A stretch of 64,000 nucleotides of DNA from contig JACRLR010000021.1 in the NCBI GenBank assembly GCA_016219645.1, positions 1 through 64,000 of the forward strand, in the 5' to 3' direction. Source of the stretch: Nitrospirota bacterium (GTDB taxonomy: Bacteria; Nitrospirota; Nitrospiria; Nitrospirales; Nitrospiraceae). The position numbers and the translations under genes are program-made. Below, one piece after another: positions 51,332 through 61,799 of the stretch. The notes beneath the pieces were generated by a model that saw only the letters and a list, made by a program, of their open reading frames with translations, was not told the origin of the DNA and did not search any database. Numbering within the stretch: position 1 is the stretch's first letter; each line of letters begins with the position of its first letter.

Positions 51332-52807
51332 ATGCTCCATCGCCCTCTTGAGGAACTGACCTTCGACAATACGTATTCCAGGCTTCTTCAGGCATTTTAT
51401 GCCAAACTGAATCCAACGCCTTTCTCCAGCGCTCCGTACCTAGTGAGTTTCAATCCCGCCACCGCAGCACTGATCAATCTCAACCCCGAAGAGGCCGCCA
51501 GGCCTGAATTTGCCGCGGTGTTCGGGGGGGGCATGCTCGCTCCGGGGATGGAGCCGTTGGCGATGCTCTATTCCGGCCATCAATTCGGGGTCTACGTCCC
51601 GCAGCTTGGAGACGGGCGCGCAATCCTTCTTGGAGAGGTGCGGAATGAACGAGGCGAGAAGTGGGATCTGCATCTGAAAGGAGCGGGGCTAACACCGTTC
51701 TCACGCGAGGGAGACGGCCGTGCGGTCCTGCGTTCAACCATCAGGGAGTATCTTTGCAGTGAAGCGATGCACGGCCTCGGCATTCCGACGACTCGGGCGC
51801 TCTGTATAGTCGGCAGTGACGATAAAGTTCATCGCGAACAGGTCGAAACCGGCGCGATGTTGGTTCGCATGGCGCCGTCGCATGTCCGCTTCGGCACGTT
51901 CGAGATCTTTTACTACCGCAAGCAGCATGAGCATCTGAGGGTCCTGGCCGACTATGTCATCGAACAGCACTACCCTCACTTGAATGGTGTTGCGGACCCG
52001 TATGCCCGCTTCTTCGCCGAAGTTGTCGAGCGGACCGCGCAGGTGATTGCCCAATGGCAAGCGGTCGGCTGGGCGCACGGCGTGATGAATACCGACAACA
52101 TGTCGATCCTCGGCCTCACGCTGGACTATGGGCCGTTCGGATTCATCGACGACTACGACCCAGGTTTCATCTGCAACCACTCCGATCACAATGGCCGCTA
52201 CGCCTTCAATCAACAACCCTACATCGGTCTCTGGAATCTCAGCTGTCTGGCGCAGGCGCTGCTACCGCTTGCATCGAAAGAGGATCTGAAAGCGTCACTG
52301 GATCGCTACACGCCATTCTGCGAGCGTCGCTACATGGAGTTGATGCAGGAGAAGTTCGGCTTGCGGGAGGAGCAAGAGGACGATGCCACACTGATTCAAG
52401 ATCTCTTGTCCCTTATGCACCAGAGCCACGTCGATTACACAAACTTCTTCCGCGCCCTGGGATCGTTCTCATCCCAGGATGGATTGCGCAATGAGCGGCT
52501 TCGTGACTTCTTTCTTGATCGTGCGGCCTTTGGTGGATGGGCTAAGCGATATGCGACGCGGTTGCGGAGGGAGAAGAGTGAAGACGAGGAGCGATCCTCG
52601 CACATGAACTTGGTCAATCCCAAGTATGTCTTAAGGAACTATCTGGCCCAGCAGGCCATCGAGAAGGCGCAGCGAAAGGACTTCTCCGAGATCGACAGAC
52701 TCTTGACCCTGCTGCAAAATCCCTACAGCGACCAGCCGGGCATGGACGCTTATGCAGCCCCTCCGCCTAACTGGGGCAAGCATTTGTCGGTCAGTTGCTC
52801 ATCCTGA
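51332..52807 (+). CDS. selO: Protein AMPylase SelO (YdiU)
   Basis: A pseudokinase-fold enzyme that transfers AMP from ATP to protein side chains. Conserved features: YSGHQFGVYVPQLGDGRA (about residues 80-97), LHLKGAGLTPFSREGDGRAVLRST, GVMNTDNMSILGLTLDYGPFGFIDDYDP near residue 250. The C terminus ends in CSS, where eukaryotic SelO has selenocysteine. Length of 491 residues is normal. An eight-G run occurs in the coding sequence at 51524-51531. Confidence 0.93.
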   Translation: MLHRPLEELTFDNTYSRLLQAFYAKLNPTPFSSAPYLVSFNPATAALINLNPEEAARPEFAAVFGGGMLAPGMEPLAMLYSGHQFGVYVPQLGDGRAILLGEVRNERGEKWDLHLKGAGLTPFSREGDGRAVLRSTIREYLCSEAMHGLGIPTTRALCIVGSDDKVHREQVETGAMLVRMAPSHVRFGTFEIFYYRKQHEHLRVLADYVIEQHYPHLNGVADPYARFFAEVVERTAQVIAQWQAVGWAHGVMNTDNMSILGLTLDYGPFGFIDDYDPGFICNHSDHNGRYAFNQQPYIGLWNLSCLAQALLPLASKEDLKASLDRYTPFCERRYMELMQEKFGLREEQEDDATLIQDLLSLMHQSHVDYTNFFRALGSFSSQDGLRNERLRDFFLDRAAFGGWAKRYATRLRREKSEDEERSSHMNLVNPKYVLRNYLAQQAIEKAQRKDFSEIDRLLTLLQNPYSDQPGMDAYAAPPPNWGKHLSVSCSS

Positions 52808-53432: not shown

Positions 53433-53555
53433 CAGGATGCTCAAAATGGCCGTCCAGCAAGGCCGCAGCGAGCGAAGAGGCGAGGCGTACCCTTGTGGTA
53501 CGTTGAGCCTCTGAGCGATGCGAGAACGATGCTGGCGGACTTTTTCAGCATCCTG
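53433..53555. repeat. Palindromic element, family B
   Basis: Imperfect terminal inverted repeats at 53433-53459 and 53530-53555 (CAGGATGCT / AGCATCCTG ends). The interior has a CGTAC...GTACG hairpin and CGAGAACGATG. Part of a right end recurs at 61773-61799, and the interior is homologous to 16875-16925 between hscB and iscA. Confidence 0.7.
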
Positions 53556-53592
53556 TTAGGAGAGGGACGGGCAAGCTCGGTGGGACGGTTCT

Positions 53593-56500
53593 ATGGCCAA
53601 AGGACGTAGCGATTCGAAACTGGCGGTGGCGGGAGCGCTCACGCTCGTGTTGGCCATTGCCGGCGTATTGCTGGTCAAAGAGCCCTTGCGCAGTTCGCGG
53701 CCGGTCGGGACCGGGCTGGAAATGAAGCACACGACCGGCGAACAGTTGGTCCGTGCGCGCCTGTGGGAGGATCCGGTAGCGGCCGTGCAGCGGGGCATCC
53801 GAGAGTCAAAACCGACCGGCAAGACAGCCGGACCGGAACCGACTCTCGCCCAACGACTCGGGCCGCTCAGACAAGCTCTGGCCGAGCGTGCCGGGAACGG
53901 ACAGCGCGTCACCGTTCTCCTGGTGGCGACGAGCGGAGGTCCCTACGTCGAAAATACCGAATCGCGTATCCGCGATCGCTACGCCATCGGCACTGCCCTC
54001 GGCGTCGCCTGCTATGTTCCGGAGGATGAGGGCCATCTCTCATTCGTTGAATGGGAACCGCAAGGAGCCATTGAAGCGCTGCCCTACGAATGGTATCGCC
54101 TCAGGAAGACGCGTGTCTGCGGAGAAGTAGGATCGCATGCCTCCAACATCCTTGTCGTCTGGCTACCGGACGAATCTCTCAGTCGGGGGTTTTTGACGAC
54201 CCTGACATCGCTGTCCCAGGCCCTGGTGTGCCAGGCGTCCCAACAGAAGAGCGAATGTCTCCTGACCGACGACAAACGCAGGCTGGTTCGATTGAATCCC
54301 GCTGTTCAGCAGGCGGTCACGTTCAAGATCATGGGCCCGCGCAGTTCATCGACGTTTCGCGCGCTGTTACAGGAAGCGGGCGACTTGTATCCCGATTCGC
54401 ACGAAGGGGTCGGAGTCTGGCCGAATACTGGCGGCGCGATCGAGCTGTACTCGCCATGGACGAGCGCGATGAAGGGACTGCTCGCCTATGGACTCAAGAA
54501 AGCAGGCGGCAATGGAGAAGCCTGCACGACTTATGAGGCTTGTGAGCAGGAGTTTTACCGCCGGCTGGCCAACGCGAACATCCGGCTCGTTTACGATGTC
54601 GGCTCGGACGATCGGTTGTTCGGCGCGTTGGTCGAGGAATTGGAACGCCGGCAGGTTCGGCTGGGTTGGGATGCCGTCATCCTCATCGGCGAATGGGATT
54701 CGTTTTACGGGAGGGCTTTGCCCATCGAGTTCCGCGCCGCGGCTTGCGCGAAGGTGGCGACCTTCTCGGAAGCCGACCTGAAACAGATTCTCGTCCCGAC
54801 CACCATCAAATCCTGGTGTCCGACCGTCGCGCGCGCCATCGATCTCCAGATTCAACGCCCCGCCGACTATGAATCGCTCACACTCAACGTGTTTCGCTAC
54901 AGCTACCTCAGCGGTCTCGACGGAGAAGTGCCGGGTGATGACAGCGTGATAGCCGGCCGGGGAGAGAAGGCGAAAGCCGGAGACCAGCTCAAGGATGCGC
55001 AACGAGAGCGCCCGGAAGGCACCGGTCAGCTCGACTATGTGCGGGCTCTGGTGGCGCGCATTCACGACGAGGGAGAAGGTGCAAGGGCGATCGGAATTCT
55101 GGGCACCGATCCGTACGATTCGCTGCTCATCATCAAGGCGCTCCGCCCTTCATTCCCACACGCGATTTTCTTCACCGTCGATCTCGATGCGCGCCACCTC
55201 CACCAGAGCGAATACAAATCGACGCGCAATATGGTGGCCGCCTCTCCCTTTGGTCTGCAACTGGACGGAATGCTTCAACGCGACGTTCCGCCTTTTCGCA
55301 GCAGCTATCAGACATCGGCTTATCTGGCCGCCCTCCAAGCGGTCCAATTCGTCGTCTGTCGACCGGGCGATCACCCGCCGTCAGCGACTCCCTGCGCGTC
55401 CGGCTATCACGTCGAGTTCACGCCGGAAGACCGCATCTATGACGCGGGGCCTCATCCCAGAATCTTCGAGGTGGGACGCGAGGGCGCGGTGGATTTGAGT
55501 CCAGTGGACAAGGAGGGGGTGCGAACGGTCCATCCGCTGAGGCCGGATCTCGACTATACGGATGACCAGGGGCCCTTAAAGCAGGGGGTTGGGTTGGACA
55601 ACACCGCTGTCGCGGCGGCGCTGGCCGTCGCGCTGCTGCTGATGAGCGTCATAGCCTGGACGAATCAGCGGCTGTGGTTGTGGGTGTTGCGGAATCCTCG
55701 TCTGCTGGTGGTCATGGCACTCATCGTTGTGGCTTCGTTTGCGGCATTCGTCGCGTTCGGCGGCGCGTCGGCCTTGCTGGCCAATCATGACGAAGGAGAG
55801 CCCTTCTCTTGGACCGCCGGGGTCAGTGTCTGGCCGGGCGAACTCCTCCGCCTCTTCGTCGTCATCCTCTGCCTTGTCATGCTGGGGAAGGGCCTGCGCG
55901 ATCTGATCAAGAACAGCGACTTCATCAGCGAGGACTTTTTGTTCGAGGATGATTCGGGCCGCCGCCGGTTGTCGCCCAGGACATTCTGGACCAACTTGCA
56001 GCGGGTCTACCATCCGGCTGCAACGAGGGCCGCGACGACCGTGGACCAAGCCTGGTCTTGGTATCGCGAGGCCGGCAAGCCGTCGCAACGAGTGGTGCGG
56101 ACGGTTCTCCTGTTCCTGCTGTATCTCGGAATCATGTGGCCGCTGGAATATTGGGTGCTCGACGATGAAATAATCCAGCCCTGCCGGGGCCGGTTGAGTT
56201 GCACGGTCGATTGGGTGATGACTCTGAGCAGCGTGGGATTAGTCGTGCTGCTCAATCTGGCTGTGTTCGACGCAGTCATGTTGTGCAGACGGTGGATCGG
56301 CTGGTTGACCGCTTCGACCGGCGGCTGGTCCGATCAGGTTCAAGAAGAATATCTTCGGGAGTATGGTCTGGGCCAAGCCCAGAAAGCCGAGTTCGGCAAA
56401 CTGAAATACTTGGCCGTGGTCGATCTCATCGCTCAGCGGACCGGAGTGGTCAATCGCCTGATCCGCTACCCGTTCATCGCCTTGTTGATCATGATCGTCG

Positions 56501-56832
56501 CGCGGAACGACTACTTCGACATCTGGAATTACCCGCTCTTGCTGATCTTTTCCTGGGCGTTCAACGTTGTGCTGGCGCTGATGGGCGCATTCTTATTGTA
56601 CCAATCGGCCAGCAAGGCGAAAGCCGCCATGCTGGCCGGGCTCAGCCGCCAGATGGTCCAAGCGTTGGGAACCGGGAAGGATCACGATGTGCGCGTCAAG
56701 CAGATCCAGTACGTCATCGATGAAGTAGAAGCCAACGAACAGGGCGCGTTCGTGCCGTTCTACCAACAGCCGGTAATGGAATCGTCGCTCTACGGCATTG
56801 TGGCATTGCTCCAGTATTTATATATGAAGTAA
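53593..56832 (+). CDS. Large unassigned membrane protein, 1079 aa
   Basis: An N-terminal hydrophobic helix (about residues 11-29) is followed by a long, probably extracytoplasmic region (30-660), then seven predicted helices (about 665-690, 702-725, 749-770, 834-855, 874-898, 957-970, 979-1003) and a soluble tail. One stretch near 495-560 (ARAIGILGTDPYDSLLIIKAL, then FFTVDLDARHL) looks like a periplasmic-binding-protein type 1 fold, and an earlier part (VTVLLVATSGGPYVENTESRIRDRYAIG) recalls a similar strand-loop. I do not recognise the family. ATG after a repeat-rich gap; the next gene follows after 10 bases. Confidence 0.75.
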   Translation: MAKGRSDSKLAVAGALTLVLAIAGVLLVKEPLRSSRPVGTGLEMKHTTGEQLVRARLWEDPVAAVQRGIRESKPTGKTAGPEPTLAQRLGPLRQALAERAGNGQRVTVLLVATSGGPYVENTESRIRDRYAIGTALGVACYVPEDEGHLSFVEWEPQGAIEALPYEWYRLRKTRVCGEVGSHASNILVVWLPDESLSRGFLTTLTSLSQALVCQASQQKSECLLTDDKRRLVRLNPAVQQAVTFKIMGPRSSSTFRALLQEAGDLYPDSHEGVGVWPNTGGAIELYSPWTSAMKGLLAYGLKKAGGNGEACTTYEACEQEFYRRLANANIRLVYDVGSDDRLFGALVEELERRQVRLGWDAVILIGEWDSFYGRALPIEFRAAACAKVATFSEADLKQILVPTTIKSWCPTVARAIDLQIQRPADYESLTLNVFRYSYLSGLDGEVPGDDSVIAGRGEKAKAGDQLKDAQRERPEGTGQLDYVRALVARIHDEGEGARAIGILGTDPYDSLLIIKALRPSFPHAIFFTVDLDARHLHQSEYKSTRNMVAASPFGLQLDGMLQRDVPPFRSSYQTSAYLAALQAVQFVVCRPGDHPPSATPCASGYHVEFTPEDRIYDAGPHPRIFEVGREGAVDLSPVDKEGVRTVHPLRPDLDYTDDQGPLKQGVGLDNTAVAAALAVALLLMSVIAWTNQRLWLWVLRNPRLLVVMALIVVASFAAFVAFGGASALLANHDEGEPFSWTAGVSVWPGELLRLFVVILCLVMLGKGLRDLIKNSDFISEDFLFEDDSGRRRLSPRTFWTNLQRVYHPAATRAATTVDQAWSWYREAGKPSQRVVRTVLLFLLYLGIMWPLEYWVLDDEIIQPCRGRLSCTVDWVMTLSSVGLVVLLNLAVFDAVMLCRRWIGWLTASTGGWSDQVQEEYLREYGLGQAQKAEFGKLKYLAVVDLIAQRTGVVNRLIRYPFIALLIMIVARNDYFDIWNYPLLLIFSWAFNVVLALMGAFLLYQSASKAKAAMLAGLSRQMVQALGTGKDHDVRVKQIQYVIDEVEANEQGAFVPFYQQPVMESSLYGIVALLQYLYMK

Positions 56833-56842
56833 CCGGCTGCTC

Positions 56843-57562
56843 ATGCGTGAAGAACGACTAGGCGGGCTGTGGACCAGGATTACCGGCGGCACGGATGGGA
56901 AGGGTGGAGGTCACGGTCCCCTCGTCCTGCTCCTGCACGGCTTTGGCGCGCCGGGAGACGACCTCCTGTCGCTGGCTGACGAGCTGGATGTGCCGACCGG
57001 GACGAGGTTTGTGATTCCCGAGGGTCCGCTCACATTGAGCTTTGGCCCGAGTGACGCGCGCGCCTGGTGGCTGATCGACATGGCGCGCATCGCAGCGGAT
57101 CGAGCGGCAGGCCGGATCCGCGATCTCTCGAACGAAATCCCCAGAGGCCTCGCTCCGGCGCGTGAGACCATGCTGGCGTTCCTCAAAGAAGTCGAACGGA
57201 CATTCGGCGCAGACCCGCACAAGACCGTTCTCGGAGGATTTTCTCAAGGCGCCATGCTTTCGTGCGATGTGATGCTCCAGAGTGATCATCCCTACGCGGG
57301 GCTGGTGCAACTCTCCGGTAATTTACTAGCCCAGCAGATCTGGGGCCCACTCATACCGAAACGCAAAGGCATGCCGGTGTTTCAAAGCCACGGGATGCAG
57401 GATGAGATCTTGCCCTACGTGGGAGCGGAGCGACTTCGTGATACACTGAGCCAGTCCGGCCTCGCGGTCGAATGGCACAGGTTCCGAGGCGGGCACGAAA
57501 TTCCAGAACCAGTTCTCCAACGACTCGGTGTCTTTCTCACAAAGGTGCTGACAAAACCATGA
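56843..57562 (+). CDS. Alpha/beta hydrolase, phospholipase/carboxylesterase type
   Basis: A 239-residue serine esterase. The oxyanion region is LLLHGFGAPGDD (about residues 29-40), the nucleophile Ser is in GGFSQGAMLS near residue 134, the Asp is in QSHGMQDEILPY and the His is in RGGHEIP near residue 219, giving a full triad. Similar to the YpfH/carboxylesterase group. The substrate is unknown. It overlaps the next hydrolase by four bases (ATGA). Confidence 0.88.
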   Translation: MREERLGGLWTRITGGTDGKGGGHGPLVLLLHGFGAPGDDLLSLADELDVPTGTRFVIPEGPLTLSFGPSDARAWWLIDMARIAADRAAGRIRDLSNEIPRGLAPARETMLAFLKEVERTFGADPHKTVLGGFSQGAMLSCDVMLQSDHPYAGLVQLSGNLLAQQIWGPLIPKRKGMPVFQSHGMQDEILPYVGAERLRDTLSQSGLAVEWHRFRGGHEIPEPVLQRLGVFLTKVLTKP

Positions 57563-58314
57563 GCACGCTCGAATCGTTTTCTCTCACCGGACCTGACGGC
57601 AAGCGCATTCGTGGAGATCGTGCTGTGGGAAAAGACCGTCAGATTCTTTTCATCACGGGGTTCTTGTCCAAACGCTGGGGCAACAAGAGCAAGGCGCTGG
57701 CTCAGTGGTGCAAAGAAAAAGGCTGGGGATTTTGTTGTTACGATGTGCGTGGATTCGGGGAATCTGAAGGCACATTTACCGACTACACGCTGTCCGATTG
57801 GATCGCTGATGCGCGGCTTGTGTTGAATATGCTGCGAGATGGACCGCCGATCACCATTGTTGGAAATTCTCTCGGTGGCTGGATTGCCTGGATGATGGCC
57901 CAAGAATACTCGACAGTTGAAAAGCTTATTCTCATCGCTCCAGCATTCGATGGCATGGGTGTCAGAGCTCGGGAAATTTCTGCCGACCGGCGAAAACGAT
58001 GGCATGATACAGGCTGGATGCCCTGGGACGATGACCCCGTCCTCAAGGATTGGCTGCTCTCGTGGAAATGGGTCGAGGAAAGCGAAGCCTATTGGTTGAG
58101 GCGGTTTGATGAAGTGCGTCGCGTTAAGACAACCATCTTGCACGGCCTTCAAGACCAGGCCATCCATCCGCGTATGAGCTGGCAATTCGTCGACGAATTG
58201 TTAGTACGTGACTCCGAGTACCCCATCGAACTGACCTTGAAAATGGGCGACCATCGACTCAGTAGTCCCGAGCATCTGGAACTGTTTCAGCGATTGGTCC
58301 AAAGGAGGAGCTGA
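57559..58314 (+). CDS. Alpha/beta hydrolase
   Basis: A 251-residue hydrolase: ILFITGFLSKRWGNKSKAL near residue 30, CCYDVRGFGESEG, and the nucleophile Ser in VGNSLGGWIAW near residue 103. The Asp is probably in LHGLQDQAIHP and the His in MGDHRLS near residue 232. It resembles BEM46/ABHD10-like acyl hydrolases. Coupled to both neighbours: it starts in the upstream stop and ends at the start of the small gene after it. Confidence 0.85.
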   Translation: MSTLESFSLTGPDGKRIRGDRAVGKDRQILFITGFLSKRWGNKSKALAQWCKEKGWGFCCYDVRGFGESEGTFTDYTLSDWIADARLVLNMLRDGPPITIVGNSLGGWIAWMMAQEYSTVEKLILIAPAFDGMGVRAREISADRRKRWHDTGWMPWDDDPVLKDWLLSWKWVEESEAYWLRRFDEVRRVKTTILHGLQDQAIHPRMSWQFVDELLVRDSEYPIELTLKMGDHRLSSPEHLELFQRLVQRRS

Positions 58315-58481
58315 TGCTGGTGTTGATTCACAAAGAATGCGGCGGGCCGGCGCTGGACGAATCGCCGGTCGGCGAAGTCTGCGCCATCCCCATCGACCGG
58401 TTCCCCTTTGCCTGTTTCACCTGCCTGGAAGAGATCATCGACGAATCGGAAGTCCGACTGTCGCAAGAACTCGGAATCTAA
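58314..58481 (+). CDS. Small Cys-pair protein, 55 aa
   Basis: A short gene with a strong AAAGGAGGAG ribosome site, sharing one base with the previous stop codon. The product starts MLVLIHKECGGPALDE and contains H6, C9, a single C23, and CFTC (about residues 34-37), then an acidic tail. The His and four cysteines could form a zinc or metal site. No known family recognised. The tight coupling to two hydrolases suggests joint expression. Confidence 0.6.
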   Translation: MLVLIHKECGGPALDESPVGEVCAIPIDRFPFACFTCLEEIIDESEVRLSQELGI

Positions 58482-61772: not shown

Positions 61773-61799
61773 GCTGGCAGACTTTTTCAGCATCCTGCC
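61773..61799. repeat. Half copy of family B repeat
   Basis: GCTGGCAGACTTTTTCAGCATCCTGCC matches the right end of the element at 53433-53555 with one mismatch. It runs into the 3' end of the regulator gene and supplies its stop codon (61787-61789). Confidence 0.65.

Follow-up and report, generated by a model that had tools for sequence, protein, structure and literature searches.

A Nitrospiraceae membrane protein that couples a LivK-type flytrap to a possibly insect chemoreceptor-like helical domain

We examined a 64,000-nucleotide stretch of DNA (hereafter, the window) from a Nitrospirota bacterium of the family Nitrospiraceae (GenBank assembly GCA_016219645.1, contig JACRLR010000021.1, positions 1 to 64,000 of the forward strand), concentrating on one gene near its end. 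The open reading frame at 53593–56832 of the forward strand starts at an ATG and encodes 1079 amino acids. A first-pass annotation, made from the letters without database searches, had called it a membrane protein of no recognised family with the layout of a receptor. The features that we assign to the protein are as follows; 7TM stands for seven-transmembrane, PBP1 for type-1 periplasmic-binding protein, and ECL for an outer (periplasmic) loop.

53593..56832, forward strand: full 1079-residue protein, with N-terminal helix, PBP1-type flytrap, linker helix and 7TM channel-like domain (open frame, intact in dozens of genomes)
53635..53697, forward strand: predicted N-terminal transmembrane anchor, residues ~15–35, with a cytoplasmic N-terminus (hydropathy peak of 2.5 at residue 19)
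53755..53775, forward strand: juxtamembrane motif RLWEDP or RLWQDPF, residues ~55–61 (R56, L57, W58, D60 and P61 invariant in a 13-member alignment)
53896..55515, forward strand: predicted periplasmic PBP1 (Venus flytrap) domain, residues ~102–641 (AlphaFold2 model and match to LivK 3td9)
55600..55662, forward strand: predicted linker transmembrane helix, residues ~670–690, running from out to in (hydropathy; helix 11–31 of the model, at moderate to low confidence)
55696..56826, forward strand: predicted 7TM domain S1–S7b, residues ~702–1078, possibly like insect gustatory/odorant receptor channels (model and match to BmGr9, 8uvu)
55756..55836, forward strand: predicted periplasmic loop ECL1, residues 722–748, EPF...G.S.WP (22% of positions at least 90% conserved; net charge −3.1 over 723–748)
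56155..56202, forward strand: predicted periplasmic loop ECL2 and start of S4, residues 855–870, with the cysteine pair PCRG..SC
56503..56535, forward strand: predicted periplasmic loop ECL3, residues 971–981, R..YFD.W..P (55% of positions at least 90% conserved)
56683..56826, forward strand: S7a, GAF.P loop and C-terminal S7b helix, residues 1031–1078, putative pore region (model helices 372–388 and 401–419; conservation)

Genome comparisons establish computationally that this is a real and conserved gene. It is present in a single copy in its own genome and in 32 of 61 related genomes, and in the closest relatives (96%, 92%, 85% and 84% identity) the frame is open without internal stops, so the 1079-residue frame of the first-pass annotation holds. 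Intact frames of this type were found in dozens of Nitrospiraceae genomes (29%–96% identity); split or stop-bearing copies were few, and distant or fragmented (G109, G237 and L105). Several Nitrospiraceae carry two paralogues (for example, G149, G166, G169 and G194), and a diverged clade within the family (L101, L102, L106 and relatives) shares ∼30% identity with the protein. A scan of bacterial and archaeal contigs that used the RLWEDP/RLWQDPF motif as a pattern returned 319 candidate stretches encoding relatives, of which 80 were kept; nearly all came from Nitrospira or related Nitrospirota, with Nitrosospira briensis included. Carriers amounted to 41 of 198 sampled Nitrospirota genomes, the majority of them Nitrospiraceae, and to six of 398 sampled Pseudomonadota genomes. 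Restriction to nitrifiers was considered and rejected, as only one of nine AMO-family carriers outside the genus has such a gene. The membrane domain, searched by itself against the 198 Nitrospirota genomes, returned the same genomes as the full protein, with no 7TM-only paralogues seen. A tblastn search of plasmids and phages gave no match, and there is therefore no sign of a mobile cargo gene.

Sequence searches were nearly silent. Searched singly, the protein matched nothing meaningful in Pfam, NCBIfam, PADLOC or PHROGs and no solved structure in a PDB sequence search; PDB profile searches with each domain separately, the extracytoplasmic region included, gave nothing credible. A permissive Pfam scan of 36 members found scattered chance matches only: The members had no match of the Peripla_BP type, and the 25 families listed (E ≤ 10) did not include the Lig_chan, 7tm_3 or 7TMR-DISM membrane-domain families; none of all these matched the 1079-residue protein itself. 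One of the 36 members matched the ABC permease family BPD_transp_2, unconvincingly (E = 0.015). COX15-CtaA matched the flytrap part in four members (best E = 1.5e-4), a match that we discounted because the modelled domain is alpha/beta. By sequence, then, the protein still has no characterised family, and the first-pass view that it matches no recognised family, sensor or transporter stands. At the level of fold that view gives way: The sensor is of a known, LivK type, and the membrane part resembles insect gustatory and odorant receptor (GR/OR) channels.

The sensor fold is secure in the predicted structure. Modelling, which the first-pass annotation had suggested for about residues 30–660, was run with AlphaFold2 on residues 45–665 from 36 sequences (mean predicted local distance difference test [pLDDT] 79.7, predicted template modelling score [pTM] 0.86). 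The best structural match of the model was LivK of Thermotoga (3td9; Z = 18.6, root-mean-square deviation [rmsd] 3.7, 310 aligned), followed by many binders of branched-chain amino acids and aromatic acids, and 861 of 1000 aligned chains scored at least Z = 8. Foldseek also listed metabotropic and ionotropic glutamate receptors and the calcium-sensing receptor, which have this fold in common. Residues ∼102–641 are thus modelled as a two-lobed, LivK-like PBP1 flytrap, bearing out the PBP1-like strands noted at first pass. Across the 13-member alignment, the invariant extracytoplasmic residues include RLWxDP after the first helix, GPxxS, LIGEWDxxYGR, YSYLxGLDG, QxDY, SDxYDxLLI, FFTTDLD, TRN and PPFR, among others.

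A profile comparison (hhalign) of the flytrap with 28 Nitrospirota binding proteins and LivJ was not significant (probability 0.3). Its single best local alignment to LivJ, likewise not significant, paired GPRSSS with IGHLCSSST; comparison by eye makes the same pairing (GPRSSS as GPxSSS) and also sets the consensus SPWAT against SPAAT and YGR against YGEG. These loops hold ligand contacts in LivJ, and for that reason our guess from the sequence would be an amino-acid-like ligand.

The membrane part was placed by hydropathy and by a second model. Mean hydropathy over 70 members showed one helix at 15–35, ahead of the flytrap, and further peaks at 674–998. The model of residues 660–1079 (pLDDT 76.3, pTM 0.75) has the linker helix at 670–690 and then helices at 702–721, 749–782, 830–854, 867–907, 928–970 (with a break), 982–1025, 1031–1047 and 1060–1078. 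The seven helices and soluble tail of the first-pass annotation are therefore recast as an N-terminal helix (∼15–35), a linker helix (∼670–690) and seven more helices, the supposed tail being the cytoplasmic end of S6, the short S7a and the C-terminal S7b (1060–1078), which the model places in the manner of the pore helix of insect receptors. The computed topology follows the positive-inside rule: With the helices arranged as in insect receptors, all four cytoplasmic loops among the seven inter-helix loops are net positive over 36 members, and all three periplasmic loops are net negative. The core is accordingly predicted to have its N-terminus inside and its C-terminus outside. In the S3–S4 loop, PCRG and the second cysteine occur together in 78 members and both cysteines are lost in eight divergent members, with a single cysteine in none, a joint gain and loss that we explain by a disulphide on the periplasmic side.

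Conservation is concentrated on the outer face and at the C-terminus. In the three periplasmic loops, 22%, 29% and 55% of positions are at least 90% conserved; entropy is 0.99 in the GAF.P loop that joins S7a to S7b, and 1.21 in S7b itself, the lowest of all the helices. The cytoplasmic loops are mostly variable and among the least conserved parts. Such a pattern would be expected of a protein in which S7b forms the functional core and the flytrap exerts its effect at the outer face.

Structural comparison of the membrane model pointed, among natural proteins, to one group above all. Among 350,542 PDB chains searched with Foldseek, the nine best matches were all insect gustatory or odorant receptors (E = 0.06–0.18, probability 0.51–0.95). 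VIA-align ranked BmGr9 (8uvu) first (Z = 11.7, rmsd 5.2, 261 aligned), followed by Gr43a, AaegOR10, Orco and others; 18 of its top 20 rows were GR/OR (Z = 9.1–11.7), with alignments that reach the C-termini of both chains. The best natural chain of any other kind scored Z = 7.5, and this lead of the best insect receptors, of more than 3 Z units over any other natural protein, counts against a chance likeness. In published BmGr9 (PMC11100771), S6, S7a and S7b span 45, 15 and 21 residues, with steps of 6 and 15 between them (S7a 395–409, S7b 424–444); the model has 44, 17 and 19 residues, with steps of 6 and 13. Benton and Himmel (2023; PMC9998090) verify seven-transmembrane ion channels (7TMICs) by the packing of the transmembrane helices (TMs), a long TM4–6 anchor and the exceptional split of TM7. 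In our single model, the long TM4–6 (S4–S6 of 41, 43 and 44 residues, the second with one break) and the split of TM7 into a cytoplasmic 7a and a membrane 7b (model helices 372–388 and 401–419) are both seen, and the packing is matched at moderate Z only.

Several observations weigh against this likeness. GR/OR are the best natural matches overall at Z = 8.6–11.7, which lies below the value of about 13 under which helical proteins call for caution, at an rmsd of 5–7 Å, and designed helical proteins appear in the same VIA-align list at Z = 8.2–10.3. The Foldseek E-values (0.06–0.2) are at background level: A control search of a viral structure library (BFVD) gave background only, reaching E = 0.07 for plainly poor alignments with low TM-scores (mostly 0.1–0.2) and probabilities mostly <0.5. 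The membrane fold comes from one model (pLDDT 76), and its S7b is short and partly polar. By sequence, 7tm_6, 7tm_7 and DUF3537 are absent from the 25 families listed in the permissive Pfam scan. The TM7 motif TYhhhhhQF of insect Grs, which outside insects is conserved only in part or not at all (PMC9998090), does not occur in that form in the family, which has Y-x6-Q-Y or Y-x6-E-Y instead. A profile comparison of the membrane domain with four insect receptor sequences was no better than 100 shuffles (probability 0.2). This last test carries little weight because it also misses the flytrap, whose fold is beyond doubt; insect receptors themselves diverge to 8% identity (PMC9998090). Weighing both sides, we judge a 7TMIC fold, as suggested by the model, to be slightly favoured, and a channel mechanism, argued by analogy, somewhat less probable than the fold. 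Separately, the only viral match of similar size with moderate probability (0.57) was a 440-residue giant-virus protein (Catovirus CTV1; BFVD A0A1V0SCD1), which may be a similarly shaped membrane protein.

The best-supported interpretation is an inner-membrane receptor whose flytrap detects a solute in the periplasm and influences the 7TM domain by way of the conserved outer loops. This agrees well with the first-pass idea of a receptor coupled to a transmembrane unit, since a PBP1/LivK flytrap (Z = 18.6) is joined to a multi-helix domain whose strongest conservation falls on periplasm-facing residues and the region of the C-terminal helix. That the device is a one-chain chemoreceptor whose flytrap gates a channel-like 7TM domain is a proposal that we make tentatively, as not far from an even call; the stricter version, a bacterial ligand-gated ion channel with a LivK-type flytrap directly gating a 7TM channel folded like insect chemoreceptors, is possible and more doubtful. 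In such a receptor, a cytoplasmic N-terminus and one membrane helix would tether the flytrap in the periplasm, where it would bind a small, possibly amino-acid-like ligand. A second helix would lead into the seven-helix domain, arranged as in insect gustatory and odorant receptors with its core N-terminus in and C-terminus out, its long S4–S6 forming a cytoplasmic anchor and its S7 split into S7a and the membrane helix S7b. Ligand would close the flytrap, the conserved periplasmic loops and the linker helix would transmit the motion to S5 and S7b, and an S7b-lined pore in a (perhaps tetrameric) assembly would open, so that ion flux would report the external ligand. We infer opening at S7b from the fold likeness to insect receptors; ligand, oligomer, pore and gating are all conjectural in this scheme.

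The genes around the 1079-residue frame bear on some of the alternatives. Those conserved beside it are as follows.

51332..52807, forward strand: SelO protein adenylyltransferase, upstream conserved neighbour (Pfam E = 1.2e-151; 58 of 75 loci)
56843..57562, forward strand: Abhydrolase_2 carboxylesterase-like protein, 239 residues, 10 nt downstream of the 1079-residue gene, associated and not core (Pfam E = 1.4e-24; 50 of 75 loci)
57559..58314, forward strand: Hydrolase_4 alpha/beta hydrolase, 251 residues, its start overlapping the previous stop, associated and not core (Pfam E = 1.2e-18; 53 of 75 loci)
58314..58481, forward strand: 55-residue Cys protein, HKECGGPA...C...CF.CLEEI.DESEVR, an associated gene (small open reading frame conserved in syntenic loci)

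The two alpha/beta hydrolases and tiny Cys protein that the first-pass annotation had placed in a tight row are indeed there, the last four cistrons ahead of an ABC-F gene being separated by one 10-nt gap and two overlaps. The usual Nitrospiraceae order is SelO, the 1079-residue gene, Abhydrolase_2, Hydrolase_4, the 55-residue Cys protein and an ABC-F-like ATPase, the last reading as ABC-F (translation-type). The Cys protein, possibly a zinc-ribbon-like microprotein, is short enough for annotation to miss. The survey of neighbours that the annotation had suggested thus recovered the hydrolase linkage in most Nitrospiraceae loci, but not elsewhere: The diverged clade of the same family has DNA polymerase III alpha, acetyl-CoA carboxylase, tetratricopeptide repeat (TPR) and NnrS genes as neighbours, with no SelO or hydrolases, and the Pseudomonadota members examined have unrelated neighbours without the hydrolase operon. 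The hydrolases are therefore not part of the core function, which lies in the 1079-residue protein itself; the operon is a lineage-specific association. In the loci examined, no constant partner gene accompanied the whole family, and no LIV permease (LivHMGF) or transporter ATPase was found beside the gene in the part of the neighbours scanned.

Several individual loci differ in other ways. A divergent member from another Nitrospirota family has a guanylate-cyclase-like protein with a TPR-S (sensor) part directly downstream (L129:9474-10898). Nitrosospira briensis has two diverged copies (L128:6494-9616 and L104:9974-13144), the more divergent of which lies downstream of an inositol monophosphatase-like gene, and a 1352-residue Pseudomonadota member (L126:6263-10318) carries a ∼280-residue charged coiled-coil-like insertion between the first helix and the flytrap. 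In the window, a repeat of ∼130 bp resembling repetitive extragenic palindromic or miniature inverted-repeat transposable elements lies just upstream of the gene (53433–53560), with a partial second match at 61773–61796; the genome holds about 40 copies at 79%–99% identity.

The alternatives overlap with one another and with the receptor proposal in the confidence that we give them, a chance fold likeness being compatible with a non-channel receptor or a transporter. That the flytrap is real and the membrane domain an unrelated fold, its likeness to insect receptors a chance arrangement of long helices, is quite possible given the background-level E-values, the Z below 13, the designed proteins in the same list and the lack of sequence signal to insect receptors. 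Yet insect receptors top both structural lists, the best by >3 Z units over other natural proteins; the protein matches them in topology, in helix lengths, in its split S7 and in the conservation of S7, and the sequence test is blind, missing even the certain flytrap. A joint lipid or stress-response module with the hydrolases and SelO would account for the tight operon in most Nitrospiraceae loci (SelO in 58, the first hydrolase in 50 and the second in 53 of 75), but is improbable, as the gene sits among other neighbours in the diverged clade and in every Pseudomonadota member examined.

The flytrap could also be fused to a receptor that is no channel, the ligand altering the cytoplasmic face of the helical domain to signal to soluble partners. 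The secure sensor fold, sizeable cytoplasmic segments at S2–S3, S4–S5 and S6–S7, and the TPR-S/guanylate cyclase-like neighbour of one divergent member are all in keeping with this. It is nonetheless unlikely, though not far-fetched: The cytoplasmic loops rank with the most variable parts, which does not suggest a conserved interface with a partner, and the protein has neither a cytoplasmic signalling domain nor, in the loci examined, a constant partner gene. A one-chain transporter, with the flytrap as fused substrate-binding domain and the helical domain carrying ligand inward, would suit the usual service of LivK-type flytraps to transporters and the periplasm-facing conserved residues, as at a substrate entry. 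We consider it distinctly unlikely, because PBP1 proteins feed ABC permeases with ATPases and the protein shows no convincing ABC permease match (one of 36 members), the loci examined show no LIV permease or transporter ATPase beside the gene, the downstream ABC protein is ABC-F-like, and no transporter fold is prominent among the structural matches.

If the flytrap does gate a 7TM channel of the insect chemoreceptor kind, the family would represent a prokaryotic 7TMIC branch with a built-in extracytoplasmic sensor of known fold. In eukaryotes, flytraps gate glutamate-receptor channels and class C G-protein-coupled receptors (GPCRs), and the present fusion would add a third mode of linking such a sensor to the membrane. 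The 7TM channels that underlie insect smell and taste have a disputed origin, and a small expressible protein of this kind would allow one to ask whether 7TMICs were ligand-gated before animals. Such a protein would also give a clue to the way in which Nitrospira, major nitrifiers, perceive their environment. Bacterial 7TMICs have reportedly been described by Himmel and colleagues and could include this family. As cited elsewhere (PMC11526382 and PMC12187929), Himmel et al. (2023 Curr Biol) reported 7TMICs from lineages throughout the tree of life. The flytrap fold itself is familiar; its fusion to a 7TMIC is an architecture that we did not find described in the searchable literature, a body that excludes Himmel et al. 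2023.

Set beside known systems, the protein shares with the LivK/LivJ (HAAT) binding proteins the flytrap fold (310 residues aligned to 3td9) and counterparts of the GPRSSS, SPWAT and YGR loops, whereas it is membrane-anchored, larger, with insertions and a fused helical domain, has no significant profile match to them and has no LIV permease genes seen beside it. Like class C GPCRs and ionotropic glutamate receptors, both among the Foldseek matches of its flytrap, it carries a PBP1-kind flytrap ahead of a membrane domain; that domain has no Lig_chan or 7tm_3 match and is like neither in structure search. Bacterial 7TMR-DISM receptors also have an extracytoplasmic sensor followed by a 7TM unit, but the present protein has no Pfam match to them, a C-terminus predicted outside and no cytoplasmic output domain. 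Compared with insect GR/OR and other 7TMICs, it is bacterial, has an added flytrap and two extra helices, and lacks the canonical TM7 motif and detectable sequence homology, while its predicted membrane domain shares with theirs the order and length of S4–S7b, the split S7, the N-in/C-out core and a conserved C-terminal helix.

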